Of a stretch of 64,000 nucleotides of DNA, positions 3,743-41,490 are shown one piece after another. Positions within the stretch are counted from its first letter, which is position 1. Each line of letters begins with the position of its first letter. The position numbers were made by a program, and so were the translations under genes. The stretch covers positions 12,512,416 through 12,576,415 of the forward strand of contig CM026564.1 of assembly GCA_015143295.1 (NCBI GenBank), in the 5' to 3' direction. Under the pieces are notes generated by a model. The model worked only from the letters and a program-made list of their open reading frames with translations, did no database searches and had not been told where the DNA came from. This DNA comes from Tetracentron sinense (lineage: Eukaryota; Streptophyta; Magnoliopsida; Trochodendrales; Trochodendraceae).

Positions 3743-3759
3743 CCCCTGTTTTTGCTTCC

Positions 3760-10530: not shown

Positions 10531-10537
10531 TCGCATG

Positions 10538-10935: not shown

Positions 10936-10971
10936 TCGTCCTTCTTGTGCATCTTGTCTAGTGTATCTTTT

Positions 10972-12535: not shown

Positions 12536-12550
12536 ACAAAGAGGGGCAAC
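12536..12550 (+). other. Polypurine tract of Tat-1
   Basis: ACAAAGAGGGGCAAC directly before the 3' LTR; Ogre-2 has AAAGAGGGGCAGC in the same position. It would prime plus-strand DNA synthesis. Confidence 0.8.
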
Positions 12551-18141: not shown

Positions 18142-18146
18142 ATTAC
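18142..18146. repeat. Target-site duplication of Tekay-1, left copy
   Basis: ATTAC before the left LTR, repeated at 27090-27094. Confidence 0.9.
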
Positions 18147-18452
18147 TGTCGCGACCCAAAATACCCCCTAGGAGTTAGGGATACTTTGACTCGTGACCGC
18201 CGTATCATACCTCCGATATGATACATAAGGCACACATGGAAACCTATCAGAGTACCTGAACACACATAGCAGAAACGATATACAATGCACTGCAGAAATA
18301 AAAACACTAAACATAGCGAAAGTAAAGCAAAGACTCCTATAACTTGGTCCAAACATGAACCAACAAAATATACATGTATGCGAATATCCAAAAAGGGTAG
18401 AGTGGACAAGTCCCACTCCCACATAACAAAATACTATATCTTCCTAAGGCGA

Positions 18453-18590
18453 TCAACAAAAGTCGAAGTCTCGACACCTATCTACTGAACCATCGTCCTG
18501 ATAGTGGTCCATGGAAGGCTCTAGGTCGAAGTACTCTTCCTCTACCCATGGTTCCGTGCCACATAGATCAAACAGAGTTCGAGCACCTGC
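18453..18590 (-). CDS. Conserved LTR micro-ORF (Tekay-1 3' LTR)
   Basis: Minus-strand frame from the conserved GCA-GGT codons (complement of 18590) to TGA at 18453-18455. It reads L-F-D-L-C-G-T-E-P-W-V-E-E-E-Y-F-D, then an S-M-D-H-Y-Q-D-D tail shared with the Tekay-1 5' LTR and LTR-F. The upstream ATG seen in the 5' LTR is ACG here. Confidence 0.4.
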   Translation of the reverse strand, partial: AGARTLFDLCGTEPWVEEEYFDLEPSMDHYQDDGSVDRCRDFDFC

Positions 18591-19516
18591 TGATAATAAC
18601 AAATATCGACTGAGCGTGGAATACTCAGCGCATACAAACTAATAACAATAAGCAATATAGAATAGAGCATACGAAGCATGGAGACTGAGATCCTTAAAGC
18701 ATATCAAAGTGTAGAAACCATGTAAGCATATGTGATGAACTCCAAAATCCGAAACCCAAATCATAACCGTGTGAGTCATACGATAATCATAGCCTTGAGA
18801 GTTCTTGTGAGTTCATGGAGTTGCTTAGAGTCAATTATGATCCGTAGAGACAGAGAGCATAGTATCGTAAAGATCTTAGAGCATTTCATTTGTGATCCTT
18901 GGAGCTTGTGAGACGATCTTAGACATTATCATAGAGCTTCTTGTGAGTATGTATCATAATCCTTAGAGCTTGTGAACCGATCTTAGACAAATCATAGAGT
19001 TGCTTAGAATCGTTCCTTATAAGTCATTTATTGAAAAACCCCTTTTGTAACTTTGAGAAATCCATGGAAAACATCGGTTCATGCGAACCATACGAGCATA
19101 TGAGCATAGAAGAGTACTAGCATATTATGACACTCAAAAACTCTTAGAGACATTTCATCAAACACTTAGAGTGCATCATCATAATAACTTACATCCAAGT
19201 ATACAAACACATCCTTTCACACCATACTAGTCAAGATATATGCATAGAAGAGATTAAGAAGATCAATATTTAGTAACTTAGTAGTATTGCAAGATTGGTA
19301 GTAGAGTGTATCTACCTTGGTGAAATCAAAAACTTTGATTCCTAATGGCTTGAACAAGCAAGAACCTTGAGTTCTTGGTAGAGAAACACCAAAGGAATGA
19401 AAGGACTTGATCTTCCTTCAAGCTTGAACAACTCCTAGTTCTTCTCCTTCTTCTCCTCTCAAAATCCTTCAAAAGCAATGCACTAAGGGTTTCCGAAACC
19501 CTAAGGCACGAACAAG

Positions 19517-19528
19517 CCTTTATATAGG
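19517..19528 (-). promoter_or_regulatory. TATA box in the Tekay-1 3' LTR
   Basis: CCTATATAAAGG on the minus strand, identical in the 5' LTR (26605-26616) and LTR-F (49520-49531). Confidence 0.6.
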
Positions 19529-19582
19529 CAAGGGGTGGTGGCTAAAGTCTTAAACACCCTTAATGAAGAAAATCTGCGTATA

Positions 19583-19770
19583 ACCGATCGATCGATGGTA
19601 CGACCGAGCAATCGATGGCTTACCGGTCGATCGGTGGTTTCAACCGAGAGATCGGTTGAAAACACCCTCTCTAGAATTTTTCCCCATACAAAAAAGTTAA
19701 CCAGTCGATAGCTACCGAGCGATCGGTAGAGGACCTGTCGATCGGAGGTTATCACCGAGCGATCGGTGAT
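19583..19770. promoter_or_regulatory. CGATCG palindrome cluster in the Tekay-1 3' LTR
   Basis: At least eight words of the types ACCGATCGATCG, ACCGGTCGATCGGT and CCGAGCGATCGGT, alternating over about 190 bp upstream of the TATA box. The 5' LTR has the same array at 26668-26862. Confidence 0.6.
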
Positions 19771-20000
19771 CCCCTGTTTTCTGCAAAACCCTGTTTTCAC
19801 TACTTGAATCTTCTCCAATCCAATTCCAACACTCTTTTATGCTTTTAACACACTCCTTAAGGATATATAGACCTAATAGAACATGCACGCCATAAATCCA
19901 AACTCGTATATTAACATAAGGCCCGTTAGGGAACAAACCACACTTGGGCACTATTCACATACTATTCACACTTAGTGAGATACGGATTTGGGGTTTTACA

Positions 20001-20016
20001 TCCCTCCCCCCTTACA
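20001..20016 (-). other. Polypurine tract of Tekay-1
   Basis: The plus strand TCCCTCCCCCCTTACA is GTAAGGGGGGAGGGA on the coding strand, directly next to the 3' LTR. Matches the Tekay-2 tract at 35098-35113. Confidence 0.8.
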
Positions 20017-20092
20017 AGAATTTTTTCCTCGAAATTAGAACGACACCCAAAACATAACAAGAACAAAATACATACAAAACTAACAAGGAAAA

Positions 20093-23000
20093 CTACTCAA
20101 ACAATTGAGGGTACTTTTCCTTCACTTCCGCTTGTCGCTCCCATGTAGCTTCTTCCTTGGAATGATGTTGCCACTTCACAAGGACTGAAGGGATAGTCTT
20201 GGTGCGCAAGACTTGATCTCTACGAACGAAGATCTAAACTGGTTGCCCAACCAAAGTGAGATCCTCTCAAATCTTCATAGGAACAAGAGCAATGACTTGT
20301 GACAGATCCGGAATGTATTTCCTGAGCATAGAGACGTGAAATACATTATGGACCGCTGCCATGTGAGGCGGTAGTGCTACCCTGTAAGCAATCTCACCAA
20401 CCCGAGTGATGATCTCAAATGGCCCCACATACCTAGGGCTGAGCTTTCCTCTCTTCCCGAATCGCATGATTCCCCGACTCGGTGAAATCTTCATAAAGAC
20501 CCGATCCCCAATTTGAAATTCTAAATCTCTACGGCGAGTGTCCGCATAGATCTTCTGCCTATCTTGAGCAGTTTTCAGTCGCTCCCTGATCACCTTCACC
20601 ATTTTTGTGGTCCGCTCAATCAATTCAAGACCAAGAACCTTTCTTTCACCAACCTTATCCCAGTATAGCGGTGATCTACAACTCTGACCATACAGAGCTT
20701 CAAAAGGCGCCATTTGGATGCTTGCCTGATAACTGTTGTTGTAGGTAAACTCAACCAACGGCAAGTGTTCTTCCCAACTGCCCTGAAAGTCTAGCATACA
20801 AGCGCGGGGCATATCTTCCACAACCTGATTTACCCTCTCAGTCTGCCCATCTATTTGAGGATAGAAGGCATTGCTGAATTCTAAACGAGAACCCATAACA
20901 TTCTGAAAAGTTTCCAGAATCTGGAAGTGAACCTAGGATCTCGATCAGACATGATGGAAACTGGCACACCGTGCAACCTAACCACCTCCTTGACATACAA
21001 GGCTACGAACTGATTTGAGTTGAAAGTAGTCTGATACGGAAGGAAATGTGCAGACTTAGTCAATCTGTTTACAATCACCCAAATAGCATTAGAGCCCTTC
21101 ACCGTCCGTGGCAAACCCACGATGAAATCCATCAAGATATTCTCCCACTTCCATTCCGGAATAGAGAGGAACTTTAGAAGACCTGTCGGCCTCTGATGCT
21201 CGGCCTTCACCTGTTGGCACACCAAACATCTAGAAACATACTCGACGACTTCTCTCTTCATGTTTCGCCACCAGTAGTTCCTCTTGAGACTCTGATACAT
21301 CTTGGTACCTCCCGGATGTACCGTGTACTTGGATTGATGAGCCTCGTCCAAAATCTCTCCCCTCAACACTGTGTCGGCGGGAACACACAACTTGCCTTTG
21401 AATGTGATAGCACCATTACCATTCAAAGCAAACTCCTGACTGCCATTACTAACCGACTTGTCTCGGTAAGCAAGCAACTCAAGATCCGAATTCTGCAACT
21501 CCTTAATTCGGCTCAAAATATGAGGCCTAACCGCGATGTTAGTTATCACCGGTCCATAGGTGACCTGCCTGAGAGTAGTGTCTAGATTACACATGTCATG
21601 CAACAACTTCCACTCTTGTACTCTCAAGTGAGCCATAATCCCGTAGGGCTTCCTACTAAGAGCATCGGCTACCTCATAAACTCCATCCATCGAAGCTGCC
21701 TCATATTCAACTCCTTCTGGAGAAAGAGATACTTCAAGCTCTTGTGGTCCGTGAACACCACGAACTCTTCCCCATAGAGGTAGTGACGCCAGATTTTCAG
21801 CGCAAAGATGACTGCTGCAAGCTTCAAGTCGTGGATGGGGTAGGTTTGCTCATGCTTCTTCAACTGGCGGGAAGCATAGGCAACCACCTGCTTATGCTGC
21901 ATCAAAACACATCCAAGTCCAACTAGTGAAGCATCACTATAGACTTCGAAACCACCGCTCCTGGATGGAACTGTGAGAACAAGGGCTGTGGTAAGCCTCT
22001 TCTTCAACTCTAAGAAACTTGCCTCACACTTTTCACTCTAAGGGAACTTAGTATTCTTTCTCATGAGGTAGGTAAGCGGAGCTGCTAAACTCAAAAATCC
22101 CTCCATGAACTTCCTGTAGTATCCTGCCAGACCGAGAAAACTGCAAATCTACGTAACACGCTTCGGCCTTTCGCAATTCATTACTGCCTCAATCTTTACA
22201 GGATCAACTGAGATACCTTCAGCAGACACCACAAGTCCAAGAAAAGACACCTTGTCTAGCCAGAACTCACACTTACTCAACTTAGCATAAAGCCTATGCT
22301 CTCGAAGAGTCTGCAATACAAGGCAGAGATCTCTCGTGTGATCATCCTGTGTTTGTGAATACATGAGGATATCATCTACAAATACGATCACACACTGATC
22401 GAGAGATGATCTGAACTCCAGGTTCATCAAATCTATGAATGTGGCTAGCGCATTAGTTAGCCCAAAAGACATGACCAAAAACTCGTAATGGCCGTATCGA
22501 GTCCTGAATGCTGTCTTCGAAATGTCTTCCTTCTTGATCTTCAGCTGATGATAACCAGATCAAAGGTCAATCTTTGAAAAGAACCTTGCAACCTTCAACT
22601 GATCAAACAAGTCGTCTATCCGAGGTAATGGATAACAATTCTTGATTGTGACTTTGTTCAATTGCCTGTAGTTAATGCACATACGCATCGACCCATCCTT
22701 TTTCTTCCCGAAGAGCACTGGAGCTCCCCAAGGTGAGACACTAGGCTGGATGAAACCAAGGCCTTGCAATTCTTCCAGCTACTCCTTTAACTCCTTAAGC
22801 TCAATAGGGGCCATCCTATACGGAGCCCTTGAAATCGGTGCCATGCCTAGAGCTAGCTGAATCGCAAACTCAATTGCCCGATCCGGAGGCAATCCCTGTA
22901 AGATTTCTGGAAAAACATCCATGTACTCACATACAACAGGAATGGATGTGGAGTCTCGTACTTCCACGTTCTCGAGACTGAGAGCTGCAAAGTGAGCAAT

Positions 23001-23377
23001 GTCTCTCCTCTGAAGTCCCCTAAAATGAAACGGCTTTAACCCAACGGGTTTAAAGTTCACCACCTTCTTGAAACATGCCACGTGCCCATGGTGAGCTGAG
23101 AGGCAATCCATACCTAGGATAACGTTGAAATCCCAATCCTAAAATCCCAGAATGATCAAATCAACAGGCAACTCATGTTGCATGACTTGTACAACATTGC
23201 CCAGACACACTCTATCTGTCTCAATGGTCTTGCTTAGTGGAGTCGAAATGGATAACTCCCGAGGTAGCTTACTCGGCTCGAACGTAAAGCCTTTGGCAAA
23301 GCTAGGTGAGACGAACGAATGAGTAGATCCCATGTCAATCAACACTCTTGCTAGACACTCGTTCACTAGCAACGATC
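20093..23377 (-). pseudogene. pol: pol of Tekay-1 (protease, RT, RNase H, integrase), multiply broken
   Basis: Would encode the replication enzymes. Domains on the minus strand: retropepsin (23372-23139) whose catalytic D-T-G is D-M-G; RT N-part (23111-22560) with the N-K-V-T-I-K-N and P-L-P-R motifs; RT core with F-V-D-D-I-L (in 22478-22149); RNase H (22007-21669); integrase zinc finger and first acidic residues (21690-20881); integrase C-part with G-P-F (20896-20267); and a T-I-P/W-E-R-chromodomain-like tail ending with TAG at 20093-20095. Visible lesions: CAG-to-TAG at the protease end and before RT, CGA-to-TGA in RT and after integrase, TGG-to-TAG before RNase H, a deletion of roughly 50 bp at the RNase H end, and a 1-bp deletion near 20890. 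Tekay-2 pol is the intact comparison. Confidence 0.9.
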
Positions 23378-23527
23378 CTGAGAATGATAAATACCCAAGT
23401 TATAATCTACTACGTGTATAATACATATTGACACATGCATAACAATACCATCACATAGCACATATATATATATATATACAACCATCATGGCAACTCTAGA
23501 ACTTGAACAATATTAATTCGCGCGTAC
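23378..23527 (-). other. GT-AG intron between gag and pol (Tekay-1)
   Basis: On the minus strand the upstream exon ends GTGCAAG and the intron starts GTACGCG. It contains a long AT dinucleotide run (23464-23480) and ends TTCTCAG, followed by GATCG. Length 150 bp. Splicing gives Val-Val-Gln-Gly then Leu-Leu-Val-Asn-Glu, the same junction as in Tekay-2. The two introns are largely dissimilar inside except for the donor and the TA-rich core. Confidence 0.7.
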
Positions 23528-24748
23528 CTTGCACAACATCATTAGATGCCTGTGCGTCTCTATCGTCATGGCAAAGACCCTACCTTGGTTAGCCTGACAA
23601 GGCTGCTGGGTGGGTGACAAGGATCTATAGGCCTGAGATGAAGACCCTTGAAATGAAGCCTGCCTGCCTGGAGGCCGAACTCCCTGTGGTCCAGACTGTG
23701 ACTGCTTACGCAGGCAATCCCGAATTACATGACCCATCTCTCCACAGTGGAAGCATCCACCTGACAATCTTCGGTAATCCCCTGTCTTGTGCCGATGACC
23801 ACAGATGGCACACTCCTCAAAAGTTTATGATACGGAGGAAGCCGGAGGCATAACCCTCGTAGCCTGTGATACCGTAGGACGCAGTGCCTGAGGCTCAAAA
23901 GAAGGTCTCTGAGCTGACATCGGCTGGGAGAACTGGTAAGGTGTAGTCCTAGTCCTCTTCTAGGACTGTGAAGAACCACTCAATTGACCCCAAGACATGC
24001 TCTTCCCGAAGCCATTGTCTCTTCTCCTCATAAAATCTGCCGCATTCTTCTCGGCGATTTTCGCCTTCCCTATTATCTCTCTCCAAGAATCCACTTGGAG
24101 AGTGGACACCTGATCCCAGATGAAAGCTTTCAAACCCATCTCAAACTTCCTGACCCGTAGGTCTTCAGTAGTAACCAAGTGCGGAGCAAACCTCGACAAC
24201 TCAGTGAACTTAGCCTTATACTCGGCTACACTCATCGTTCCTTGCTCCAAAAGCATAAACTCCATTGCTTTTTGTTCCCGAATAAATCTGGGAAAGTACT
24301 ATTCACAGAAAGTCTCTAGGAATTTCGCCCATGTCCACGGTTCACCTGCCTTAGTGACATCTCTCTGCCTTTGGGCAGCTCGCCACCAATGTTCGGCTTC
24401 ACCTTCCATCACAAAGGAAGCCCATTCAACTCTTTGTTCCTCAGTGCATCAGAGAGCCCGAAAGGTCTTCTCCAACTGCATAATCCAGGACTCTGCCACC
24501 ATTGGATCCAGAGTGCCATAGTATATCGGAGGCCGTAGTCTCCAGAAAGCTTCGAGCTCCACAGTGTGATGCACCGGTGTAGGCACAAGAGTAGCCGATG
24601 GGGTAGGAGTAGATCTGGTTACCAACAAAGCCAACGTCTCAGCTATGGAATCCATAGCGTTCGTGAAGTAAAGCGGTTCCTCTTCTCTAGGAACTTCACC
24701 CTCGGATCTTCAAGTATGGTAACCACGACCCCGAATGCTGCGTCTCAT
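23528..24748 (-). pseudogene. gag: gag of Tekay-1, multiply broken
   Basis: Gag capsid/nucleocapsid gene, start ATG at the complement of 24746-24748 (M-R-R-S-I-R-G-R-G, aligned to the Tekay-2 start). The frame is hit by TGA after about 12 codons, TGA after F-R-A-L (near 24447), and TAG before Y-F-P-R (near 24300). The Gag core is recognisable at 24655-24449 and 24265-23960 (L-E-Q-G-T-M-S-V-A-E-Y-K-A-K-F). The CCHC zinc knuckle C-F-H-C-G-E-M-G-H-V-I-R-D-C is at about 23760-23715. One base is missing just before the splice donor relative to Tekay-2. Not expressible as one protein. Confidence 0.85.
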
Positions 24749-25200
24749 GATATCAAATCCTGAGATCAATTGGCAAAACATGAGTCGAACTTGGATACCA
24801 ATCGTCATAAATCATATAGCAATTCAATAATCATGAAATGCTATTACGCATATAGTATACATGGAAGTATACACATAAAAATACAATCATAACTTAGAGT
24901 ATTCTAGCATAACTAAGATCCTAGAGTATTCTAGCGTAACTAAGATCCTTGTGTTGGGCTTCTACCCTTTTTCCTTTGGAATAAGACTAAGGACGTAGTC
25001 TAAACTAGCATCTAGTATGAGCTCCTAGACCGACCTAATGATTTGCTTGATACCAGTTATGTCGTGGTAACAAACCTAAGACAAATGAGTCCATCTGAGT
25101 TCTAAGTTCAACTCAGAGAACTTACTTCCGCTTAACCCAAGGGAAACTGATCCCTAAAGCACTGACACCAAGACACTAGCCTATGTGACCTAATGCCTTC
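24749..25200 (-). other. Leader of Tekay-1
   Basis: Non-coding between primer site and gag. A CTCAGGAT word (complement of 24757-24764) lies 11 bases before the gag ATG and resembles a 3' splice site; Tekay-2 has CTCAGGAC at the same distance. Confidence 0.6.
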
Positions 25201-25212
25201 GCTCTGATACCA
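25201..25212 (-). other. Primer binding site of Tekay-1
   Basis: TGGTATCAGAGC on the minus strand, 4 bp inside the 5' LTR, complementary to the 3' end of initiator methionine tRNA. Confidence 0.9.
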
Positions 25213-25521
25213 AGTCTGTCGCGACCCAAAATACCCCCTAGGAGTTAGGGATACTTTGACTCGTGACCGTCGTTTCATACCTCCGATATGATACATAAGG
25301 CACACATGGAAACCTGTCAGAGTACCTGAACACATATAGCGGAACGATATACAATGCACAGCGGAAATAAAAACATTAAACATAGCGAAAGTAAAGCAAA
25401 GACTCCTATAACTTGGTCCAAACATGAACCAACAAAATATACACGTATGAAAATATCCAAAAAGGGTGGTGTGGACAAGTCCCACTCTCACATAACAAAA
25501 TATTGTATCTTCCTAAGGCGA

Positions 25522-25686
25522 TCAACAAAAGTCGAAGTCTCGACACCTATCTACTGAACCATCATCCTGATAGTGGTCCATGGAGGGCTCTGGGTCGAAG
25601 TACTCTTCCTCTACCCATGGTTCTGAGCCACATAGATCAAACGGAGTTCGAGCACCTGCCGATGATAACAAATATCGGCTGAGCAT
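25522..25686 (-). CDS. Conserved LTR micro-ORF (Tekay-1 5' LTR)
   Basis: ATG (complement of 25684-25686) lies inside the hairpin sequence GCTGAG/CTCAGC and opens a 54-codon frame to TGA at 25522-25524. It includes S-A-G, P-F-D-L-C, P-W-V-E-E-E-Y-F-D and S-M-D-H-Y-Q-D-D. Negatively charged, no membrane segment. Function unknown. Confidence 0.45.
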   Translation of the reverse strand: MLSRYLLSSAGARTPFDLCGSEPWVEEEYFDPEPSMDHYQDDGSVDRCRDFDFC

Positions 25687-26604
25687 GGAATACTCAGCGT
25701 ATACAAACTAATAACGATAAACAATATAGCATAGAGCATACGAAGCATGGAGACTAAAATCTTTAAAGCATATCAAAGCGTAGAAACCATGTAAGCATAT
25801 GTGATGAAATCCGAAATCCGAAACCCAAACTATAACCATGTGATTCATGAGATAATCATAGCCTGGAGAGTTCTTGTGAGTTCATGGAGTTACTTAGAGT
25901 CAATTATGATCCGTAGAGACATAGAGCATAGAGCAAAACCATAGAGCCAATATCGTAGAGATCTTAGAGCGTATCATTTTTTATCCTTGGAGCTTGTGAG
26001 ACGATCTTAGACATTATCATAGAGCTTCTTGTGAGCATGTATCATGATCCTTAGAGCTTGTGAACCGATCTTAGAAAAATCATGGAGTTGCTTAGAAACG
26101 TTCCTTATAACTCATTTATTGAAAAACCCCTTTTGTAACTTTGAGAAATCCATGGAAAACAGCGGTTCATGCGAAACATGCGAGCATATGAGCATACAAG
26201 AGTACTAGCATATTTTGACACCCAAAAACTCTTAGAGACATTTCATCAAACACTTAGAGTGGATCATCATAATAACTTACATCCAAGTATACAAACACAT
26301 CCTTTCACACCATAGTAGTCAAGATATATGCATAGAAGAGATTAAGAAGAACAATATTTAGTAACTTAGTAGTATTGCAAGGTTGGTAGTAGAGTGTATC
26401 TACCTTGGTGAAATCAAAGACTTTGATTCTCAAAGGCTTGAACAAGCAAGAACCTTGAGTTCTTGGTAAAGAAACACCAAAGGAATGGAAGGACTTGATC
26501 TTCCTTCAAGCTTGAACAACTCCTAGTTCTTCTCCTTCTTCTCCTTTCAAAATCCTTCAAAAGCAATGGACTAAGGGTTTCCGAAACCCTAAGGCACGAA
26601 CAAG

Positions 26605-26616
26605 CCTTTATATAGG
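26605..26616 (-). promoter_or_regulatory. TATA box of the Tekay-1 5' LTR promoter
   Basis: CCTATATAAAGG on the coding strand. The palindrome array at 26668-26862 lies 50-260 bp upstream. Confidence 0.65.
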
Positions 26617-26667
26617 CAAGGGGTCGTGGCTAAAGTCTTAAACACCCTTAATGAAGAAAATCTGCGT

Positions 26668-26862
26668 ATAACCGATCGATCAGTGGTACAGACCGAGCGA
26701 TCGGTGGCTTACCGGTCAATCAGTGGTTTCAACCGAGAGATCGGTTGAAAACACCCTCTCTAGAATTTTTTCCCATACAAAAAAGTTAACCAATCGATAG
26801 CTACCAAGCGATCGGTAGAGGACCGGTCGATCGGAGGTTATCACCCAGCGATCGGTGATCCC
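26668..26862. promoter_or_regulatory. CGATCG palindrome cluster of the Tekay-1 5' LTR
   Basis: Repeated ACCGATCGATC, GAGCGATCGGT and ACCGGTCGATCGG words, same layout as 19583-19770; several copies differ by C-to-T or G-to-A changes. Confidence 0.6.
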
Positions 26863-27089
26863 TTGTTTTCTGCAAAACCCTGTTTTCACTACTTGAATCT
26901 TCTCCAATCCAATTCCAACACTCTTTTATGCTTTTAACACACCCCTTAAGGATATATAGACCTAATAGAACTTGCACGCCATAAATCTAAACTCGTATAT
27001 TAACATAAGGCCCATTAAGGAACAAACCACACTTGGGCACTATTCACATACTATTCACACTTAGTGGGATACGGATTCGGAGTTCTACA

Positions 27090-27393: not shown

Positions 27394-27780
27394 TGTAGAG
27401 CCCTAGACCTTTTCATGCTTAATACATGACACTTTCGTTGTCATTTTCCCTTTTTAAGAGGTATAATTAATAAATAAGGAGATAATTGGAAATTTCAAAA
27501 TGTGAGAAATGTTCCTTTTCGAAGTACGAACACGACGCAAGTTGAATCGTCAAAATTGGATGAACGAGTCAAAAGATATGGCCAAAACAGTCTGAACTTG
27601 TAGGAAATCGTAGCTCGGAAGGCACTAAGGACGTGCTCTGACGTCGTACTCTGATAACGTAGCACAGACAACGTACTCTAATAACGTATACTGTGTGCAT
27701 CCGTTGTACGGCTCACAACGGGCACGTTGTACAACTCACCACGGGCACGCTGTACATAAGACAACGGACAACGAGCTCAG

Positions 27781-28095
27781 CACTATTCACAGCACCACGA
27801 GTTGGCACTATTCATAGCACCACGAGTTGGCACTAATCACAGCACCACGAGTTGGCACTATTCATAGCACCACGAGTTGGCACTATTCACAGCACCACGA
27901 GTTGGCACTATTCACAGCACCACGAGTTGGCACTATTCACAGCACCACGAGTTGGCACTATTCATAGCACCACGAGTTGGCACTATTCACAGCACCACGA
28001 GTTGGCACTATGAGTTGGCACTATTCACAGCACCACGAGTTGGCATTATTCACAGCACCACGAGTTGGCACCGTTCACAGCACAATGAGTTCGGC
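27781..28095. repeat. 25-bp tandem array in the Tekay-2 5' LTR
   Basis: About 12 units with core CACGAGTTGGCACTATTCAC plus one 13-bp partial unit near 28011. The 3' LTR has about 14. Because 25 is not a multiple of three, long open frames across it repeat every 75 bp and are artefacts. Confidence 0.92.
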
Positions 28096-29477
28096 ACTCG
28101 TGTTTTTTACAGAAATTTAGTAAGGGTATTATGGTCTTTTGTCAGTTCACTCTTACCTTAAGAGTTTAACCCGAGCCTTTAGGGCATCATTCAACACTTA
28201 GAGAGTTTGAGAGAATAGAAGAAAGAGGAGAAGGCGATTCCAATCTAGGGTTTCCATTTTGGAGAGAAATCAAAGGGTTTTGAGACCCTAGATCAACCTC
28301 AAGCCCGTTTTCTTCAAGATTTCGGTGCAAGCATTCGTGGAGCTCGCGAATCAAGCTAGGGCAGCAACTCACAGCCATTTGGAAAGAGGGTTTCTTCCTC
28401 ATTTCTTCAAGGTCGGTACTTTTTACTACCCTCCTAGTTATAGTTCCTCTCCTCCCTCTATTTCTTTTGATTTTTCTTTCATTTACACATGTACTATGAG
28501 ATGGATGAATGGTGAATGGTGAATGGTGAATGGAGATGTAAGGGGCGATTGGATGCCAGTGGTTGTGTGGTGATGATTAAAACGGGGAAGGGCATTGTTC
28601 CAATAATAAACATACATGTATGATTGAGTAAAACCATCTAGAAAAGCATGTTGTAGGGTAAATCCATAATGAACACACCATGTTTGATGAAATGCCAAGG
28701 TGAATACAGTGAGCTGTAAATTAGGAAATGCATGCCTAATAAATTCTGAATATTGCTAGGGCCTATGATAGTGTGTTTCCTGTTTTCCCTAAATGCTATG
28801 AATATTGAATTGTTTAATCTTTGACGCTATATGTGTTGTGAAATTACCCAATGTTCATGTTTAAATTTAAATGCACGTATGTACACGGTTCCCACGAGCA
28901 CAGCATGCATGGCATGATTTATCGAGGTTTACAAGAACGCGGTTAGAGGTGGGACATATCCTACGATATGTTTTACCTCGCTTTTCACAAGAAGACAAGA
29001 ACCAACATTCCACGAGGGGTCTCCCCTCACTCACAAGTGCATATCATGAAGAAGGGCCTCCCTTCCCTCGCAAGTACATACATATCATAAAGAAGGGTCT
29101 CCCTTCCCTCGCCAGTGCATTGCATAAAGAAGGGTCTCCCTTCCCTCTCAAGGCATCTCACAAGTGCATCTCACAAGAGAATCTCACAAGTTACATGATC
29201 ACAAGCAAGCACGCATGACATGCATGACATGACACGAGATACGAGAATCAAGCAAGATAGACAAGACAAGATTTCAAGTACGAAAAGAGATTTCAAGTCA
29301 AGTCAAGTGCACGATGTTTTCAAGAGGATTTATTGGCTTTCTACGAATTTCAAGCATGATTATAAACTGCTTTACTTCCTTGTATGATATGAATTATTTC
29401 CATTTGACATATATGAATTGCTCCTGATCATGTGTTGCCATTTCTATGCTATAATTGTTGGTTAGTATTTAGTACCC

Positions 29478-29498
29478 GCTGAGTATTCCATGCTCAGC
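29478..29498 (+). promoter_or_regulatory. Conserved LTR hairpin GCTGAG/CTCAGC
   Basis: GCTGAG (29478-29483) pairs with CTCAGC (29493-29498) around TATTCCATG. Same or slightly changed form in nearly all chromovirus-type LTRs here (about 90, 18612, 25680, 37256, 38200, 41230, 46190, 48585), always just upstream of the AG and micro-ORF. Confidence 0.6.
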
Positions 29499-29508
29499 CG
29501 TACTTCTT

Positions 29509-29628
29509 ATGTCGGCAGGTTCTGAGGGAGCTGCTGCTCCATTTGATGTTTGTGCTCCTGGTCCATGGGTGGAAGAGGAGTACGTCGAGGAGCCTTTGGA
29601 GGAACCTCCCGTAGAGGGTTATCAGTAG
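29509..29628 (+). CDS. Conserved LTR micro-ORF (Tekay-2 5' LTR)
   Basis: ATG at 29509, 39 codons, TAG at 29626-29628. Reads M-S-A-G, a Gly/Ala stretch, P-F-D-V-C-A-P, P-W-V-E-E-E-Y-V-E-E and a Pro/Glu tail. It lies upstream of the primer site, so on the genomic RNA it would be a leader ORF if transcription starts before it. TCGGCAG just inside the start could instead act as a 3' splice site. No homologue recognised. Confidence 0.45.
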   Translation: MSAGSEGAAAPFDVCAPGPWVEEEYVEEPLEEPPVEGYQ

Positions 29629-29937
29629 GTGGTGATTAGATTCTGAGTGGATTAGCTGTGGGTGAGATGAGAGTTAGATTTATGTATTTTGGCGGGCATG
29701 TCCGCACTTTCGTATGGATTGCTTTTTGTATAAACTTGGATTTGTTTATGTATATACATAGAGGTTTGGTAGTCTTCCGCTGTGCTATGTTAGAGTATGT
29801 TTCCACTGTTTATATCCTCTATTGTATATGCTCTGTGGGTTTTTGCAGGTTGGGTTATCAAGCAAGTCATGAAATCCATGATTAGTCGTCCAAAGTTCAC
29901 TCTAACTCCTAGGGTGGGTTTTGGGTCGCGACAGAAG

Positions 29938-29949
29938 TGGTATCAGAGC
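29938..29949 (+). other. Primer binding site of Tekay-2
   Basis: TGGTATCAGAGC, 4 bp after the 5' LTR, complementary to initiator methionine tRNA. Confidence 0.93.
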
Positions 29950-30295
29950 TTAGGCTTTAGGTCTCTAGGGTTACTTAGAATCTTATACCACGGCTTGACA
30001 AGAGCATATGTTGGGAAACAAGTTAGGAAGAAAGTAAGTCGGAAGAGATTCTTGATCCAAGTGTAAGACTAAAACCTTAGTCTTAGTCGAAAATGGTTGC
30101 TTTAACCAAGTACGGGTCTTAGGTACGCTAGAACACTAAAGTATAAGTATAATGTGATGAATACTCTGATGACTTGATGTGATGTATATTAGTATTATAC
30201 AACTAATACAAATCGAATTATTGTGAAATAACATTGAAATAAACTGTGGTTTCAAGTTAGACTCATGTGATGCTATTGTTCTCAGGACTTTAGTC
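29950..30295 (+). other. Leader of Tekay-2
   Basis: About 350 bp, non-coding. GTTCTCAG at 30278-30285 ends 10 bases before the gag ATG and looks like a 3' splice site, as in Tekay-1. Confidence 0.6.
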
Positions 30296-31544
30296 ATGAG
30301 GCAGGGCACGCGGGGTCGTGGACCACACACCAGAGCTTTATCTTCTTCCAGAGATGAGGATGAGCAGCCGGACCTCTCTCAGGTCTTAGGCTCTATTGCT
30401 GAAACACTCGCCATACTGGCGGCTCGGCAAGCTATACCATCGTCGGTGGCACCTACTCCACCGCCCGCAGCTCCAGTACATTGTACCGCTGGAGTTGAGG
30501 CATTCAGGAGATTGAGGCCTCCACCCTTCCATGGGGGTGTGGACCCTCTTGCTGCGGAGGCATGGATCCTCCAGATGGAGAAGATCTTTACGGTCCTCTC
30601 ACCTACAGAGGAGGAGAGAGTAGCATGGGCAGCTTTCATGCTAGAAGGCGAAGCCCACCATTGGTGGTTGTCCGCACTAAGGACGAGAGATTTGACCATG
30701 CAGGGTCTACCTTGGACTTGGGAGGAGTTCAAGGATACTTTTTACAAGAAGTATTTTCCGATTGGAGCACGGGAAAAGAAAGAGAGGGAATTCATCAACC
30801 TTGAGCAAGGTTCGATGTCTGTGGCCGCTTATGAGGCCAAGTTCTCGGAGCTATCACGCTTCGCGACTCACATGGTTGCCACCGAGGCAATGAAGGCGAG
30901 GAGGTTTGAGCAAGGACTCAAGGATGTCATCATGGAGAAAGTATCGGTCTTTAGGCACGCCACTTACGCTGAAGTGGTGGATAAAGCCTTGTTGGTTGAG
31001 ACCAATTCAGAGACCGTGTCCAAGAAGAGAGAATTGGCAAGAGGCCAATCTAGTGGTTCGGTACCTTTAGAGAGGTGGGCCCGGACTGGTCCTTATCAGT
31101 ATGCATGGCCAGCACCACAGATGAGGCCGACTTATGCGCCTCCAGCACCCCGGCAGTATGTGCCACATGCACCTCGACCTCAGGCTCTTCCGGGCCCACA
31201 GCCAGTTACACCTCAGGCAGCGAGGTATACACCACCTTCGGCCCCTCCGGCTTACACATATAAGGTCTGCACTTCATGCGGCAAAAGGCATCTGGCAGGA
31301 GATTGCCGAAGAGCATTTGGTGGATGTTATCATTGCGGTTGCCAGGGCCACATGATCAGGGATTGCCCTAGCCGACATTCACCAGGCCAGTCTCAGGGGA
31401 TTAGGCCCCCAGCACACCTAGCAGGATCATATCAGGCATCATCTCAGACTACCCGGTCTACACCTCAGTCTCGCCAGGTGAACCAGGGGTGAGTTTTTGC
31501 CTTGACAGAGGGTGATGCGCTTGCATCTGACGATGTGGTGCAAG
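30296..31544 (+). CDS. gag: gag of Tekay-2 (Gag exon), with TGA near its end
   Basis: Gag forms the virus-like particle and binds RNA. ATG at 30296; the basic start M-R-Q-G-T-R-G-R-G matches Tekay-1. The retrotransposon Gag core spans residues about 65-215 (R-L-R-P-P-P-F, A-W-I-L-Q-M-E-K, W-W-L, Y-F-P, L-E-Q-G-S-M-S-V). Then come a Pro-rich linker and two Cys/His knuckles: C-T-S-C...H...C, and the standard C-Y-H-C-G-C-Q-G-H-M-I-R-D-C at residues 344-357. TGA at 31490-31492 ends the unspliced frame at 398 residues; Tekay-1 has AGG at the corresponding place. Beyond the TGA the frame stays open for 17 codons to the splice donor after 31544 and continues into pol after splicing. The TGA may be a mutation or, less likely, a read-through stop. 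Confidence 0.88.
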
Positions 31545-31686
31545 GTACGCGTTGGAGTTATTTCTTTATTCGTGATTGTTATGTTATGTTTTATTCCATG
31601 TGTACGTACTTGGTATGCTATATATATATATACCTATGTGTATACACTGTTGATGCTTGAATTGACGTGATTAGCAAAAATTTCAG
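31545..31686 (+). other. GT-AG intron between gag and pol (Tekay-2)
   Basis: Starts GTACGC after GTGCAAG and ends AAATTTCAG before GAACCC; 142 bp. It contains in-frame stops and a TATATATA core (31620-31632). Removing it joins gag (phase 1 after 31544) to the pol frame with no shift, giving Val-Val-Gln-Gly-Thr-Leu-Leu. Same site as in Tekay-1. Confidence 0.75.
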
Positions 31687-34600
31687 GAACCCTACTAGTC
31701 AATGAGTATTTGGCCCAAGTGTTGATTGATACCGGGTCTACTCATTCGTTTGTCTCGCCGAGTTTTTCAGAAGGCTTTTCTGTGGAGCCTAGTCAGCTAA
31801 AACCGGAGTTAGCCATTTCGACTCCGCTCGGCAAAACAGTATTGGCAGATAAAGTATATAGAAATAGCGTGGTCCAAGTTGGAAGCCACGAGTTGGCGGT
31901 TGATCTCATCGTCCTTGGATTCCAAGACTTTGATGTTATATTGGGAATGGATTGGTTAGCAGCACATCATGGGCATGTAGCTTGCTTTGAGAAAATGGTA
32001 CTCTTCAAGCCAGTTGAAGGAAAACCATTCCACTTTCACGGGTTGAAAAGCAGATCTATTGCTCGTTTTGCGGCGTTGAGCTTAGCTAACCCCGAGGCAA
32101 AGGACTCATCGACTATTCCGGTTGTGAGTGAGTTCCTGGATGTATTTCCAGAGGAGATGCCAGGATTGCCTCCAGACAGGGAGATTGAGTTTATGATCGA
32201 GCTTGCACCAGGCACAGCTCCTGTTTTCAGGGCTCCGTATAGAATGGCCCCTATTGAACTCAAAGAGTTAAAGACTCAGTTGGAAGAATTACAAAGCCTT
32301 GGCTTCATTCGACCAAGTGTCTCACCGTGGGGTGCCCCAGTGTTGTTTGTTAAGCAGAAAGATGGCTCGATGCGGATGTGTGTCGATTACCGGCAATTGA
32401 ACAAAGTCACTATAAAGAATAGGTATCCATTGCCTAGGATTGACGACTTGTTCGATCAGTTGAAGGGAGCGAGATTTTTCTCGAAGATAGATCTTCGATC
32501 GGGTTATCACCAGTTGAAGATTAAGGTGGAAGATGTTCCCAAAACTGCTTTCAGGACTCGGTATGGACACTACGAGTTCTTGGTGATGCCTTTTGGACTC
32601 ACGAACGCGCCGGCAGCCTTTATGGATTTGATGAACCGGGTGTTCCGGCCATATCTTGATAGGTGCGTGATTGTATTTGTTGATGACATTTTGGTCTATT
32701 CCCAGACACGGGAAGATCACACACGCGACCTATGCCTTGCTTTAGAAATTCTAAGAGAACACAAGCTATACGCCAAACTTAGCAAGTGTGAGTTTTGGTT
32801 GGAAGAGGTGGCATTCCTAGGCCACGTTGTTTCTGCAGAAGGTATCTCGGTAGATCCGAAGAAGATCGAAGCAGTTATGAGTTGGGCGAGGCCCAAGAGT
32901 GTTACTGAGATACGCAGTTTTCTTGGATTGGTAGGCTACTACAGGAGATTCGTAGAAGGTTTCTCTAGCCTTGCAGCACCGCTCACTTACCTGACAAGGA
33001 AGAACGCCAAGTTTGTATGGAGTGATAAGTGCGAGATCAGTTTCACGGAACTGAAGAAGAGGCTTACTACAGCCCCGGTCCTTACTGTGCCATCTGGACC
33101 TTTTGGGTATGAGGTGTATAGTGATGCCTCACACGTTGGACTTGGGTGTGTACTCATGCAGCACAAGAAAGTCATTGCCTATGCATCAAGGCAGTTGAAG
33201 GAGCATGAGAAGAATTATCCCATGCACGACTTGGAGCTTGCGGCGGTCGTGTTTGCACTTAAGATTTGGCGTCATTACCTTTATGGGGTGGGGTTCTATG
33301 TATTTACCGATCACAAGAGCCTCAAGTACCTCTTTTCCCAAAAGGAGCTGAATCTAAGGCAAAGGCGTTGGATGGAATTTCTGAAGGACTATGATTGTAC
33401 CATTCAATACCACCCAGGTAAGGCGAATGTTGTGGTTGATGCTTTGAGTAGAAGACCTCAAGGGTTGTTAGCACATATGTTGGTTCAAGAATGGAAGCTA
33501 CCAGAAGATTTGGCAAATCTGGACATCAGTGTGAATGACTCTGTCCGTGGTCCTACCTTGGCAAATGTTACAGTTCGGTCGTACATTATAGATTTGATCC
33601 AAGAATATCAAGCCATGGATGCTGAATTGTTGGCTTATCGGGACAAGGAAGTTGCTAAGGGTAGTGAGGACTTCTCTCTCACTAGTCGGGGTGCTATCAC
33701 ATTCAAGGGAAGACTGTGCGTCCCAGCCAATGCAGATTTTCGAAGAGAAATTTTGGATGAAGCACACCGTTCGAAGTACACAGTGCATCCAGGGGGTACA
33801 AAGATGTACCGGAACCTCAAGAGTCACTTTTGGTGGTGGAAGATGAAGAGGAAGGTTGCGGAATATGTAGCACGGTGCTTAGTGTGCCAACAGGTAAAAG
33901 CAGAACACATGCGGCCCGCCGGTCTATTGCATTCTCTTCCTATTCCCGAGTGGAAATGGGAGAACATATCCATGGATTTTATAGTTGGCTTGCCAAAGAC
34001 GGCAAGGGGCCCAGATGCAATTTGGGTTGTAGTAGACCGTCTGACGAAGTCTGCGCACTTCTTACCTTACCGAACTACTTTCAACTCTAGCCAGTTGGCC
34101 GCTCTATACATCAAGGAAGTAGTGAGGTTACACGGAGTGCCCGTCAGTATTGTGTCAGATCGGGATCCAAGATTCACGTCAAGATTTTGGAAAAGTTTCC
34201 AAGAGGCTATGGGTTCCCGACTTGATTTCAGCACCGCTTTTCATCCACAGACGGATGGACAAACCGAGAGAGTGAACCAAGTCATTGAAGACATGCTTCG
34301 GGCTTGTATGTTGGATTTCAGAGGCAGTTGGGAGGAGCACTTGCCTTTGGTTGAATTTGCCTATAATAACAGCTATCAGGCAAGTATTCAAATGGCACCA
34401 TTTGAGGCCTTGTATGGGCGAAGTTGTAGGTCTCCTCTCTATTGGGATGAGGTAGGAGAAAGGAAAGTACTTGGTCCGGAGTTGATTGAGCAAACTGCAA
34501 ACACAGTTAAGATCATTCGGGATCGATTGAAAGCCGCTCAAGATCGCCAGAAAAGCTATGCGGACACACGCCGTAGGGACTTGGAATTTCAAGTAGGGGA

Positions 34601-35012
34601 TCAAGTCTTTGTGAAAGTATCTCCTAGCAAAGGAATCATGAGATTTAGAAAGCGAGGCAAGCTCAGTCCTCGGTATGTTGGGCCTTTTGAGATTATCACA
34701 CGGGTTGGTGAAGTTGCTTATCGAGTAGCTCTCCCACCTCACATGGCCGCAGTTCACAACGTCTTCCATGTGTCTATGCTTCGGAAGTACATTGCGGATC
34801 CTTCGCATGTCATAGACTTGGAACCGTTGGAGATTCGAGAGGATCTCACCTTGATTGAAAAGCCGGTTCAGATTTTGGATCGAAGAGATCAGGTACTTCG
34901 CAACAAGACAATCCCTTTGGTTCTTGTACAATGGCAACACCATGCTCGGGAAGAAGCTACGTGGGTGCGTGAAGCCGAAGTCAAAGCAAAGTACCCAGAA
35001 TTATTTGAATGA
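31687..35012 (+). CDS. pol: pol of Tekay-2: protease, RT, RNase H, integrase, chromodomain-like tail
   Basis: Open from the splice acceptor to TGA at 35010-35012, 1100 codons counted from 31710, with no stop or shift. There is no convincing ATG at the start, consistent with expression by splicing from gag. Numbered from 31710: retropepsin D-T-G at 7-9; RT about 150-400 with F-V-D-D at 323-326; RNase H acidic residues D472, E509, D534; integrase H/H/C/C zinc finger from about 686 (H-R-S-K-Y-T-V-H then C-L-V-C); catalytic D756, D817, E853 with 35 residues between the last two; G-P-F at 991-993; and a C-terminal segment with [11 protein letters not shown] and E-E-A-T-W, typical of the chromodomain-like tail of Tekay/Del elements, which in that clade is thought to guide integration to chromatin. 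All key catalytic residues are present, so the enzymes look functional. Confidence 0.92.
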
Positions 35013-35113
35013 GTTTCTGTATGAAGTCTGTATATGACTTGTAGTTTTGTTTTGATTTGTAATGCTAGTATTGTCTGACTTTCGAGGATGAAATTTTTGT
35101 AAGGGGGGGAGGA
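35013..35113 (+). other. 3' UTR and polypurine tract of Tekay-2
   Basis: About 100 bp after pol; GTAAGGGGGGGAGGA at 35099-35113 directly precedes the 3' LTR and would prime plus-strand synthesis. Confidence 0.85.
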
Positions 35114-35499
35114 TGTAGAGCCCCAGACCTTTTCATGCTTAATACATGACACTTTCGTTGTCATTTTCCATTTTTAAGAGGTATAATTAATAAATAAGGA
35201 GGAAATTGGAAATTTCAAAACGTCAGAAATGTTCCTTTTCGAAGTACGAACACGACGCAAGTTGAATAGTCAAAATCGGATGAACGAGTCAAAAGATATG
35301 GCCAAAACAGTATGAACCTGTAGGAAATCGTAGCTCGGAAGGCACTAAGGACGTGCTCTGACGTCGTACTCTGATAACGTAGCACAGACAACGTACTCTG
35401 ATAACGTATACTGTGTGCATCCGTTGTACAGCTCACAACAGGCACGTTGTATAACTCACCACGGGCACGCTGTACATAAGACAACGGACAACGAGCTCA

Positions 35500-35845
35500 G
35501 CACTATTCACAGCACCACGAGTTGGCACTATTCACAGCACCACGAGTTGGCACTATTCACAGCACCACGAGTTGGCACTATTCATAGCACCACGAGTTGG
35601 CACTATTCACAGCACCACGAGTTGGCACTAATCACAGCACCACGAGTTGGCACTATTCACAGCACCACGAGTTGGCACTATTCACAGCACCACGAGTTGG
35701 CACTATTCACAGCACCACGAGTTGGCACTATTCACAGCACCACGAGTTGGCACTATTCACAGCACCACGAGTTGGCACTATTCACAGCACCACGAGTTGG
35801 CACTATTCACAGCATCACGAGTTGGCACCGTTCACAGCACAATGA
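35500..35845. repeat. 25-bp tandem array in the Tekay-2 3' LTR
   Basis: About 14 units of the CACGAGTTGGCACTATTCAC type, two full units more than in the 5' LTR. A long open frame (35415-35918) over it is a by-product of the repeat. Confidence 0.92.
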
Positions 35846-37286
35846 GTTCGGCACTCGTGTTTTTTACAGAAATTTAGTAAGGGTATTATGGTCTTTTGTC
35901 AGTTCACTCTTACCTTAAGAGTTTAACCCGAGCCTTTAGGGCATCATTCAACACTTAGAGAGTTTGAGAGAATAGAAGAAAGAGGAGAAGGCGATTCCAA
36001 TCTAGGGTTTCCATTTTGGAGAGAAATCAAAGGGTTTTGAGACCCTAGATCAACCTCAAGCCCGTTTTCTTCAAGATTTCGGTGCAAGCATTCGTGGAGC
36101 TCGTGAATCAAGCTAGGGCAGCAACTCACAGCCATTTGGAAAGAGGGTTTCTTCCTCATTTCTTCAAGGTCGGTACTTTTTACTACCCTCCTAGTTATAG
36201 TTCCTCTTCTCCCTCTATTTCTTTTGATTTTTCTTTCATTTACACATGTACTATGAGATGGATGAATGGTGAATGGTGAATGGTAAATGGTAAATGGTGA
36301 ATGGTGAATGGAGATGTAAGGGGCGATTGGATGCCAGTGGTTGTGTGGTGATGATTAAAACGGGGAAGGGCATTGTTCCAATAATAAACATACATGTATG
36401 ATTGAGTAAAACCATCTAGAAAAGCATGTTGTAGGGTAAATCCATAATGAACACACCATGTTTGATGAAATGCCAAGGTGAATACAGTAAGCTGTAAATT
36501 AGGAAATGCATGCCTAATAAATTCTGAATATTGCTAGGGCCTATGATAGTGTGTTTCCTGTTTTTCCTAAATGCTATGAATATTGAATTGTTTAATCTTT
36601 GACGCTATATGTGTTGTGAAATTACCCAATGTTCATGTTTAAATTTAAATGCACGTATGTACACGGTTCCCACGAGCACGGCATGCATGGCATGATTTAT
36701 CGAGGTTTACAAGAACGCGGTTAGAGGTGGGACATATCCTACGATATGTTTTACCTCGCTTTTCACAAGAAGACAAGAACCAACATTCCACGAGGGGTCT
36801 CCCCTCACTCACAAGTGCATATCATGAAGAAGGGCCTCCCTTCCCTCGCAAGTACATACATATCATAAAGAAGGGTCTCCCTTCCCTCGCAAGTGCATTG
36901 CATAAAGAAGGGTCTCCCTTCCCTCTCAAGGCATCTCACAAGTGCATTTCACAAGAGAATCTCACAAATTACATGATCACAAGCAAGCACGCATGACATG
37001 CATGACATGACACGACATACGAGAATCAAGCAAGATAGACAAGACAAGATTTCAAGTACGAAAAGAGATTTCAAGTCAAGTCAAGTGCACGATGTTTTCA
37101 AGAGGATTTATCAGCTTTCTACGAATTTCAAGCATGATTATAAACTGCTTTACTTCCTTGTATGATATGAATTGTTTCCATTTGACATATATGAATTGCT
37201 CCTGATCATGTGTTTCCATTTCTATGCTATAATTGTTGGTTAGTATTTAGTACCCGCTGAGTATTCCATGCTCAGCTATACTTCTT

Positions 37287-37406
37287 ATGTCGGCAGGTTC
37301 TGAGGGAGCTGCTGCTCCATTTGATGTTTGTGCTCCTGGTCCATGGGTGGAAGAGGAGTACGTCGAGGAGCCTTTGGAGGAACCTCCCGTAGAGGGTTAT
37401 CAGTAG
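37287..37406 (+). CDS. Conserved LTR micro-ORF (Tekay-2 3' LTR)
   Basis: Identical in length and reading to 29509-29628. Here it lies downstream of pol, so if expressed it could come from a short 3' transcript or read-through. The preceding hairpin is at 37256-37276. Confidence 0.45.
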   Translation: MSAGSEGAAAPFDVCAPGPWVEEEYVEEPLEEPPVEGYQ

Positions 37407-37711
37407 GTGGTGATTAGATTCTGAGTGGATTAGCTGTGGGTGAGATGAGAGTTAGATTTATGTATTTTGGCGGGCATGTCCGCACTTTCGTATGGATTGC
37501 TTTTTGTATAAACTTGGATTTGTTTATGTATATACATAGAGGTTTGGTAGTCTTCCGCTGTGCTATGTTAGAGTATGTTTCCGCTGTTTATATCCTCTAT
37601 TGTATATGCTCTGTGGGTTTTTGCAGGTTGGGTTATCAAGCAAGTCATGAAATCCATGATTAGTCGTCCAAAGTTCACTCTAACTCCTAGGGTGGGTTTT
37701 GGGTCGCGACA

Positions 37712-37716
37712 GATAC
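37712..37716. repeat. Target-site duplication of Tekay-2, right copy
   Basis: GATAC, matching 27389-27393. Confidence 0.92.
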
Positions 37717-38088: not shown

Positions 38089-38283
38089 CTAACCTCCCTC
38101 AACCAAGGAGTCGCCTTTCTCAACTTCTTCTTGATAGTCATCCTCAATCTTAGGAGTAGCTGGAAGCTCCTGTGCTAAGCCTGAGAACAATAACAGGTCG
38201 ACTGAGCATTGAAAACACTCAGCAAATATCCAAACTAACCAACAATAGCAATAACACATATACATGATCAATATCCAATTCAT
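38089..38283 (-). CDS. Diverged conserved LTR micro-ORF (LTR-C)
   Basis: 64-codon frame with ATG at the complement of 38281-38283 and TAG at 38089-38091. The shared part follows TTCTCAG (complement of 38181-38187) and reads P-K-I-E-D-D-Y-Q-E-E, in which Trp is replaced by Lys but the acidic-Tyr core is kept. Confidence 0.3.
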   Translation of the reverse strand: MNWILIMYMCYCYCWLVWIFAECFQCSVDLLLFSGLAQELPATPKIEDDYQEEVEKGDSLVEGG

Positions 38284-40814: not shown

Positions 40815-41490
40815 TGTCGCACCCCAAAATCCCACCTTGGAGTTAGGTGAGACTTTCGACACGACTAACCTGAATCTTGACAAACCATCCTGCAAAATGT
40901 ACAAGGTATATATGTAGCGGAAGTCTAAATCAAATGCAGAAGCATAAATTAACTTTTTCTTTTCTATACATAACCGGTATTCCAAGTTATATCATCCATA
41001 TCTAGTGTAGGAGTGGCCATGCCCACTCATCAAAAATACAAAATACAAAAGATTCTCTCCCTGACTCTCTCTCAGTAGTAATCCTAGTAAGACCAGATGT
41101 CTACATCCCTAGCCTACACTCGAGGCTCAGCTGCAAGCTCAAAAGGAAGCTCCTCCTCACCATAGTCCTCCTCGACCCACAGATTAAGAGCACAAATGTC
41201 GAATGGTGTACCTATCGACATAAAATGTATGACTGATCATGGAATACTCAACGAGTACAAGCTACTAGCTAACAATAGTAATAACATAACAAATTCATGG
41301 TTCTAATTTAAATGACATAAATTTACATGACATGCATGAGACTAAATGCAAAAACCCGTATAAACTCCGTGACATAATTCATACTTATTCATGAAAATAT
41401 CATTTCATGTTTCAAAACATGTTTGCCATTCTTAAAACCAATTCTTGTCTTGTTTTTGTCTCGTGAGAATCATTCTTGTCTTGTCTTGTT
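40815..41490 (-). mobile_element. Truncated chromovirus-type LTR (LTR-D)
   Basis: Begins TGTCGCACCCC on the plus strand. Contains the reversed micro-ORF (41114-41221), a changed hairpin (TGATCATGGAATACTCA) and CTTGTCTTGT runs as in LTR-A. It stops abruptly at about 41490, where SIRE-like sequence begins. Confidence 0.7.
41114..41221 (-). CDS. Conserved LTR micro-ORF (LTR-D)
   Basis: ATG at the complement of 41219-41221, 35 codons, TAG at 41114-41116. Reads M-S-I-G, P-F-D-I-C-A-L, L-W-V-E-E-D-Y-G-E-E. In the core, Val and Tyr codons differ from Tekay-2 (GTC for GTG, TAT for TAC). Confidence 0.45.
   Translation of the reverse strand: MSIGTPFDICALNLWVEEDYGEEELPFELAAEPRV

Follow-up and report, generated by a model that had tools for sequence, protein, structure and literature searches.

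Spliced RNAs encoding Gag alone are known, as far as the accessible literature goes, from Drosophila copia, barley BARE1 and Arabidopsis EVADE (PMC3735527, PMC12786077), and in the Ty3/gypsy element Cer1 of C. elegans gag exons are joined to a 3' exon to give CERV, which is required for the export of unspliced RNA (PMC10309623). Within the same scope, gag-protease of Ogre is separated from reverse transcriptase (RT) by an intron that is spliced in a fraction of its RNAs, splicing takes out rt in CRR, and Bagy2 makes a spliced env RNA (PMC6317226, PMC3735527). The copia element Bianca has a gap between open reading frames (ORFs) and split ORFs (PMC6317226), sunflower Tekay elements carry a separate ORF of 402 residues 5' of gag, termed a 5' additional ORF (aORF; PMC11728184), and a survey of Del long terminal repeats (LTRs) deals with CpG islands and att sites (PMC4029996). 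Here we describe a short conserved reading frame, the block, that recurs in LTRs of Ty3-type retrotransposons within 64,000 nucleotides of Tetracentron sinense DNA (GCA_015143295.1, contig CM026564.1, positions 12,512,416 to 12,576,415; hereafter the window). Its carriers are the elements T1 (18146-27089, minus strand) and T2 (27394-37713, plus strand), which we take to be of Tekay type, and further LTR fragments. Plant retrotransposon LTRs are usually regarded as regulatory, non-coding DNA; in mouse mammary tumour virus and human immunodeficiency virus, ORFs that lie in the 3' LTR or extend into it (sag and nef, respectively) are reached by splicing through an acceptor.

On balance we favour reading the micro-ORF as a coding exon that would be spliced in phase 1 at an AG directly upstream and would form the tail of another element product. 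Such an arrangement would resemble copia, BARE1 and EVADE in that splicing at the end of gag gives Gag without Pol. Those three are Ty1/copia elements, however; according to the accessible text of the reports, the junction in BARE1 and EVADE shifts the frame and the product terminates shortly beyond it, and in copia 2.9 kb of pol is spliced out. The terminal exon proposed here lies in the LTR and is conserved as protein. Cer1, as far as its description was available, is alike in that a protein arises when gag exons are joined to one situated close to the 3' end (the CERV exon has the acceptor TTTCAG), but the exon described here is short and placed in the LTR. Compared with Ogre, CRR and Bagy2, the intron found here is between gag and protease and in phase 1, and no LTR exon is mentioned for those elements in the accessible accounts. 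The Tekay aORFs likewise represent added coding capacity, but in the accessible text they are not described as lying within the LTR (PMC11728184). The literature searched, with subscription papers mostly outside it, held neither an LTR-encoded peptide nor a gag-protease intron for Tekay elements, which agrees with the preliminary description of this DNA in that no LTR peptide of such a kind was known there from Tekay/Del. That literature also yielded no account of a comparable LTR-encoded exon from plants, and within it an LTR-embedded, probably spliced coding sequence is probably new for this plant element group.

The LTR block and its copies

Read from 29509 to 29628, the window encodes MSAGSEGAAAPFDVCAPGPWVEEEYVEEPLEEPPVEGYQ*, the translation already given in the preliminary description. 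The candidate exon occupies 29519-29628 of the plus strand in the 5' LTR of T2, between an AG at 29517-29518 and its TAG stop at 29626-29628, and the copy in the 3' LTR of T2 (37297-37406, plus strand) encodes an identical peptide. A tblastn search over the 64 kb returned nine copies at E <= 1.7e-5, the next match having an E value of 0.69, and a pattern scan in six frames found seven copies in the window. Besides the T2 pair, the tblastn copies are those of the T1 5' LTR (25522-25655, minus strand; GARTPFDLCGSEPWVEEEY...DFDFC*) and T1 3' LTR (18453-18586, minus), LTR-F (48428-48561, minus, with the acceptor CAA instead of CAG), LTR-E (46075-46166, minus), LTR-D (41114-41211, minus), LTR-A (1-62, minus) and LTR-B (17916-18026, plus, with its AG out of phase 1). 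Ten core-bearing copies had been claimed and these nine stand, but LTR-C (38089-38180, minus) lacks the PFDIC/PWVEEEY core; by eye it has a weaker acidic homologue, PKIEDDYQEE, behind the same hairpin and CTCAG. The LTR-A copy is truncated by the window edge after PWVEEE, and that of LTR-E has a premature stop, past which most of the relatives examined stay open up to another conserved terminus, ..DVWPYLD[HY]C. The M-S-x-G start reported for five copies was found again in T2 (twice), LTR-A, LTR-D and LTR-E.

In the genome, all 150 places scored with the block peptide (P0001) match at E <= 3e-19; because these are the best-scoring 150 of 32,253 first-look candidates, the absence of stops among them is biased. 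Pfam gave no match to P0001 at E <= 1. The protein database gave one weak match, P0002 (E 0.15, 709 candidates), which as a query led to a second protein, P0003; both come from ENA contigs and are homologues by eye, reading CAPxPWVEE[ED]YVEEP...DQWPYP. Six viral contigs from a pattern scan of IMG/VR were unrelated by eye and were set aside.

Evidence for protein-level constraint

The micro-ORF is real and coding, and the segment is under protein-level constraint. Seven sequences, each representing a family or subfamily, were compared: T2, T1, F, D, B and one from each of two E subfamilies. T1 and F are close relatives, and LTR-A, cut by the window edge, was omitted. Over the 17-codon core the proportion of synonymous differences (pS) is 0.918 and that of nonsynonymous differences (pN) 0.217, with zero stops; the resulting ratio of 0.24 between families is not near 1. 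The varied synonymous codons noticed earlier are confirmed. The other five frames of the core give pN/pS values of 0.94, 1.16, 1.48, 0.39 and 1.85. For the E family, copies were chosen by their flank, by searching the genome with the 173 bases of LTR that follow the block (of 1,856 candidates 40 were scored and 30 fetched), which avoids picking them by their protein. These 30 copies differ by 0.121, 0.088 and 0.186 at codon positions 1, 2 and 3, respectively, and their pooled pN/pS (28 rows, two near-duplicates dropped) is 0.25 versus 0.48-1.54 in the other frames.

Elements that lack the gag-protease intron described below provide further blocks. T2-like ones have a pS of 0.306 and a pN of 0.069 (11 distinct sequences, the T2 of the window included), and three E-like sequences show six synonymous and zero nonsynonymous pairwise differences. 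No frameshift was seen in the better-preserved copies, and 17 of 19 blocks from intronless elements keep the length of their relatives. Selection on protein, as had been suggested from the letters of the window, is thus supported by codon positions, by pN/pS across families and by the blocks of intronless elements.

Some observations weigh against this conclusion. Although gap runs that are not a multiple of three are fewer in the block of E-family copies (two of four distinct runs) than upstream (seven of nine) or downstream (16 of 16), the block is no less diverse in its bases than the hairpin (0.107) or the first 150 columns of downstream flank (0.121, a stretch that is also the search query and hence selected for likeness). 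Diversity elsewhere is 0.180 in 150 upstream columns and 0.155 from hairpin to AG. A codon model on the flank tree gives an omega of 0.64 for the E copies, and 11 of 28 hold an in-frame stop, the pattern expected of insertions decaying after arrival. Finally, T1-like blocks show three synonymous and eight nonsynonymous pairwise differences (pS 0.039, pN 0.025).

Conservation could instead act on DNA or RNA, through promoter function, splice regulation or packaging, and the upstream hairpin is indeed conserved as strongly as the block. Solely in the frame given, pS is near saturation and pN is low, which largely refutes this explanation; we regard it as highly improbable.

The upstream AG and the opening of the frame

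Contrary to the earlier impression that neighbouring LTR sequence is not alignable, a stretch of about 60 nt upstream of the block can be aligned and recurs, with a hairpin GCTGAG..CTCAGC, in all ten window copies. In T2 this hairpin 1 is GCTGAGTATTCCATGCTCAGC (29478-29498, plus strand), upstream of the AG, and the RNAalifold consensus of 13 sequences is a 7-bp stem (TGAG..CTCA). From the hairpin to the end of the AG there are 20, 21 or 23 nt in the ten window copies; the AG itself is present in nine of them (LTR-F reads AA) and an ATG in five. The distance from AG to core is 2 modulo 3, corresponding to phase 1, in nine of the ten, the exception being LTR-B, at a G run. Upstream of the AG the frame varies between families, and in the T1-like copies L103, L111 and L112 an in-frame stop lies three codons ahead of the first codon of the exon, and the earliest in-frame Met is that of ..PSM, beyond the half-way point; P0003, from another source, has Gly at the corresponding place by eye. 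The presence of AG in nine of ten copies, the constant phase and the closed upstream frame of the T1-like copies together argue that the frame opens at the AG, which we infer to be a 3' splice site opening a phase-1 coding exon. Because it starts at this splice-site-like AG, the block is probably an extra exon joined to another element protein rather than a free-standing mini-gene.

Among the origins put forward in the preliminary description, splicing from the adjacent AG is favoured by this evidence, whereas a leader peptide fares poorly. A free-standing leader or upstream-ORF (uORF) peptide would be translated from its own ATG (M-S-x-G) on an RNA starting in the LTR, in keeping with the ATG that T2, A, D and E have at the aligned position, as do intronless copies of the T2-like and E-like kinds, and with a TATA box that precedes the block in T1, F and A and in some of the E copies. 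That ATG is absent from T1, F, B and C, however, and the block does not qualify as a conserved-peptide uORF; moreover, the hairpin-to-AG stretch does not keep the frame, which is closed by the stop ahead of the block in the three T1-like copies. We consider such a peptide unlikely.

As a spliced exon, the block would comprise about 32-48 codons, entered in phase 1 at the AG directly upstream, and would close in a stop codon, with a second hairpin behind it. The exon would add a conserved acidic tail, PFDIC..PWVEEEY..., that in some families ends in WPYLDYC or DFDFC. Hairpin 2, GCGGGCATGTCCGC in T2 (29692-29705, plus strand), was found by eye downstream of the stop; it is a possible element of the 3' untranslated region (UTR) and perhaps a 3'-end or packaging signal. 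Its variants in E (GTGGGCATGTCCAC), D (GTGGGCATGGCCAC) and T1 (GTGGGACTTGTCCAC) show paired changes by eye, and in E and D it stands behind a TTTTGTATTTT-like stretch. The LTRs of T2, T1, F, D and E also contain, about 70-110 nt short of their end, a further sequence resembling an acceptor, TTTTGCAG or GACAG with a G after it (e.g. 29840-29855).

The gag-protease intron and its absence from relatives

A phase-1 intron of 142 nt separates gag from protease in T2 (31545-31686, plus strand; CAAG/GTACGCG ... TTTCAG/GA), and T1 has one of 150 nt and of the same CAAG/GTACGCG..CAG/GA form (23378-23527, minus strand), the gag side reading ..DVVQ G in both. The E-family copies L097 and L098 carry an intron in the same position (141 and 139 nt, respectively); L099 is degraded. 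We searched the genome with a 37-residue peptide spanning the gag-protease junction, 150 places being scored of 11,104 candidates. By eye the peptide matches end to end at 86 of the 150, some within open frames of 1,536 codons, and 51 of the other 64 matches begin at residue 8 or 9, including that of T2 in the window, which starts at the intron end. The junction is exactly intronless in L104 (T2-like) and L105 (E-like).

Copies that lack precisely this intron imply that the gag donor is used toward protease. Because the intron is common to diverged families and exactly absent in relatives of two of them, its distribution suggests loss via reverse transcription of spliced RNA, a direction that we infer. 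That it can apparently be lost yet is kept in three families hints at some use. Independently of the LTR exon, the intron and its exact absence in relatives point to splicing acting on these elements. Related intron-bearing and intronless retrotransposons coexist in one genome.

Intronless elements were fetched as open gag-pol frames of at least 700 codons, and the block was sought at a guessed distance. It was present at 19 of the 24 fetched positions, being one codon short in L124 and without a relative of its length in L115; at that distance L106, L114, L119, L120 and L123 gave no block.

Possible splice partners of the LTR exon

Gag may be the most likely partner, an assignment that we make tentatively because donor and acceptor are both in phase 1 and the gag donor is the sole coding donor with evidence of use; agreement of phase has a one-in-three chance. 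In intron-bearing copies the gag donor (..DVVQ G/GTACG) can be joined to the protease exon, giving Gag-Pol; if spliced to the 3' LTR exon instead, as we propose, it would yield an acidic-tailed Gag that lacks Pol, and the block would then act as an alternative terminal exon of gag. It would be the 3' LTR copy whose AG is used, and the product may set the Gag-to-Pol ratio or be an RNA-handling Gag isoform. In this reading the tail (FDICxPEPWVEEEY, WPYLDYC) would function as a conserved module, e.g. in particle assembly or the export of unspliced RNA. For Tekay-type elements in general, a terminal coding exon in both LTRs, the 3' one being spliced from gag so that Gag-Pol and tailed Gag are made, is a possibility to which we give guarded credence. 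If true, an abundant retrotransposon group would have an undescribed gene product, encoded in the LTR and reached by splicing, with a possible answer to the control of Gag versus Pol in Ty3 elements and a concrete junction to seek in existing long-read RNA.

Several points count against Gag as the partner. The strongest is that intronless elements, which have lost the gag donor, still retain hairpin, AG and exon at those 19 of 24 positions; they either recombine with intron-bearing relatives or use another donor. In gag of three intronless copies from three lineages we found no shared GT scoring above 1.5, donors being scored with a plant matrix. A copy of a T2-type junction between gag and LTR exon had zero matches in the genome with up to three mismatches allowed, a weak null result because such an RNA would be without the polypurine tract and would hardly integrate. 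The intron removed by such a splice, of about 6 kb, would also be long by plant standards.

A donor in pol could be joined to the exon instead, at 'AEG/' in RT or 'HPG/' in RNase H, or donors could be lineage-specific, and truncated, tailed Pol would result. Phase-1 GT occurs at the RT and RNase H sites in four of five copies each (four lineages), and at the RT site in T1 and T2 also, and such donors would be workable in intronless copies. Both sites lie, however, within motifs that are kept for the enzyme, each is missing in one copy, and their scores depend on the matrix chosen; we give a pol donor a small chance. The 3' end of pol was rejected as a partner, its phase-1 donors being weak.

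The LTR AG might also be the acceptor of a 5' UTR intron, with an exon 1 spliced to a block that is translated from a non-AUG start or barely translated. Upstream of the hairpin, at a distance of about 700-1,250 nt, there is an exon 1 with a recurring donor. The LTRs of T1, F and E have a TATA box and, 202-213 nt further, a donor of uniform type that reads AAG or CAG/GTTAGTACACTC in E and ACCAAG/GTAGATACACTC in T1 and F; with a start site assumed 30 nt after the TATA box, exon 1 is 172-187 nt long (11 sequences representing the ten LTRs with both ends; 63 sequences were scanned, some places being duplicated). The feature in the T1 5' LTR (26404-26614, minus strand) has TATATAAA (26614 downwards) and an ATG-free exon 1 ending CACCAAG/GTAGATACA, and a probable exon 1 in the T2 LTR (28190-28411, plus strand) has the donor TTCTTCAAG/GTCGGTAC, no ATG, and an approximate start, no TATA box having been found there. 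Exon 1 is ATG-free in six of ten LTRs, however, an unbroken phase-1 ATG frame runs into the donor in none of the ten, T1 has a stop just ahead of the donor, and no common near-cognate start is visible by eye. A search for the T2-type junction of exon 1 and block gave one match with two mismatches, which is chance-like, and we judge a 5' UTR intron quite improbable. For want of an unbroken phase-1 ATG frame in the ten LTRs, and with the T1 stop just before the donor, exon 1 was rejected as a coding partner too.

The T2 leader (30034-30285, plus strand) has a donor GTAAGT and an acceptor TCTCAG just ahead of the gag ATG (30296). TCTCAG stands immediately 5' of the gag ATG in T1, T2 and three E-family copies, and three E-family copies of the 5' LTR were examined for GTAAGT and did not show it. 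Splicing from the leader donor to the LTR AG was rejected, since T2 has no ATG frame in phase.

Carrier elements and other features of the window

The internal regions of T1 and T2 are 67% identical. Pfam matches in the T2 ORFs are Retrotrans_gag, RVP_2, RVT_1, RNase H, Integrase_H2C2, rve and SH3_Tf2-1, in Ty3 order; no chromodomain family was matched in T2 pol at E <= 0.001. The pol tail ends in KYPELFE*, which we take to be typical of the Tekay/Del chromovirus. After the LTR, at the primer-binding site (PBS), stands TGGTATCAGAGC, and the PBS of T1 and T2 is presumably of tRNA-Met type. The LTR end itself, GGGTCGCGACA, resembles the GGG-type U5 end given for Del LTRs in the accessible part of the survey, the numbering being not exactly matched (PMC4029996).

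A second LTR pair (3012-5130 and 12550-14676), 97% identical, has a different sequence 3' of the LTR, and tblastn detected no block inside it. Rfam gave no match in the window, and an ARAGORN call of tRNA-Thr (tgt) at 63825-63920, in an LTR-like repeat, is probably false. Tandem arrays occur at 10456-12000, 62382-63321 and 27680-28111, with periods of 40, 28, 86 and 25 bases; the 25-base array sits within the T2 LTRs and has a higher copy number in the 3' LTR.
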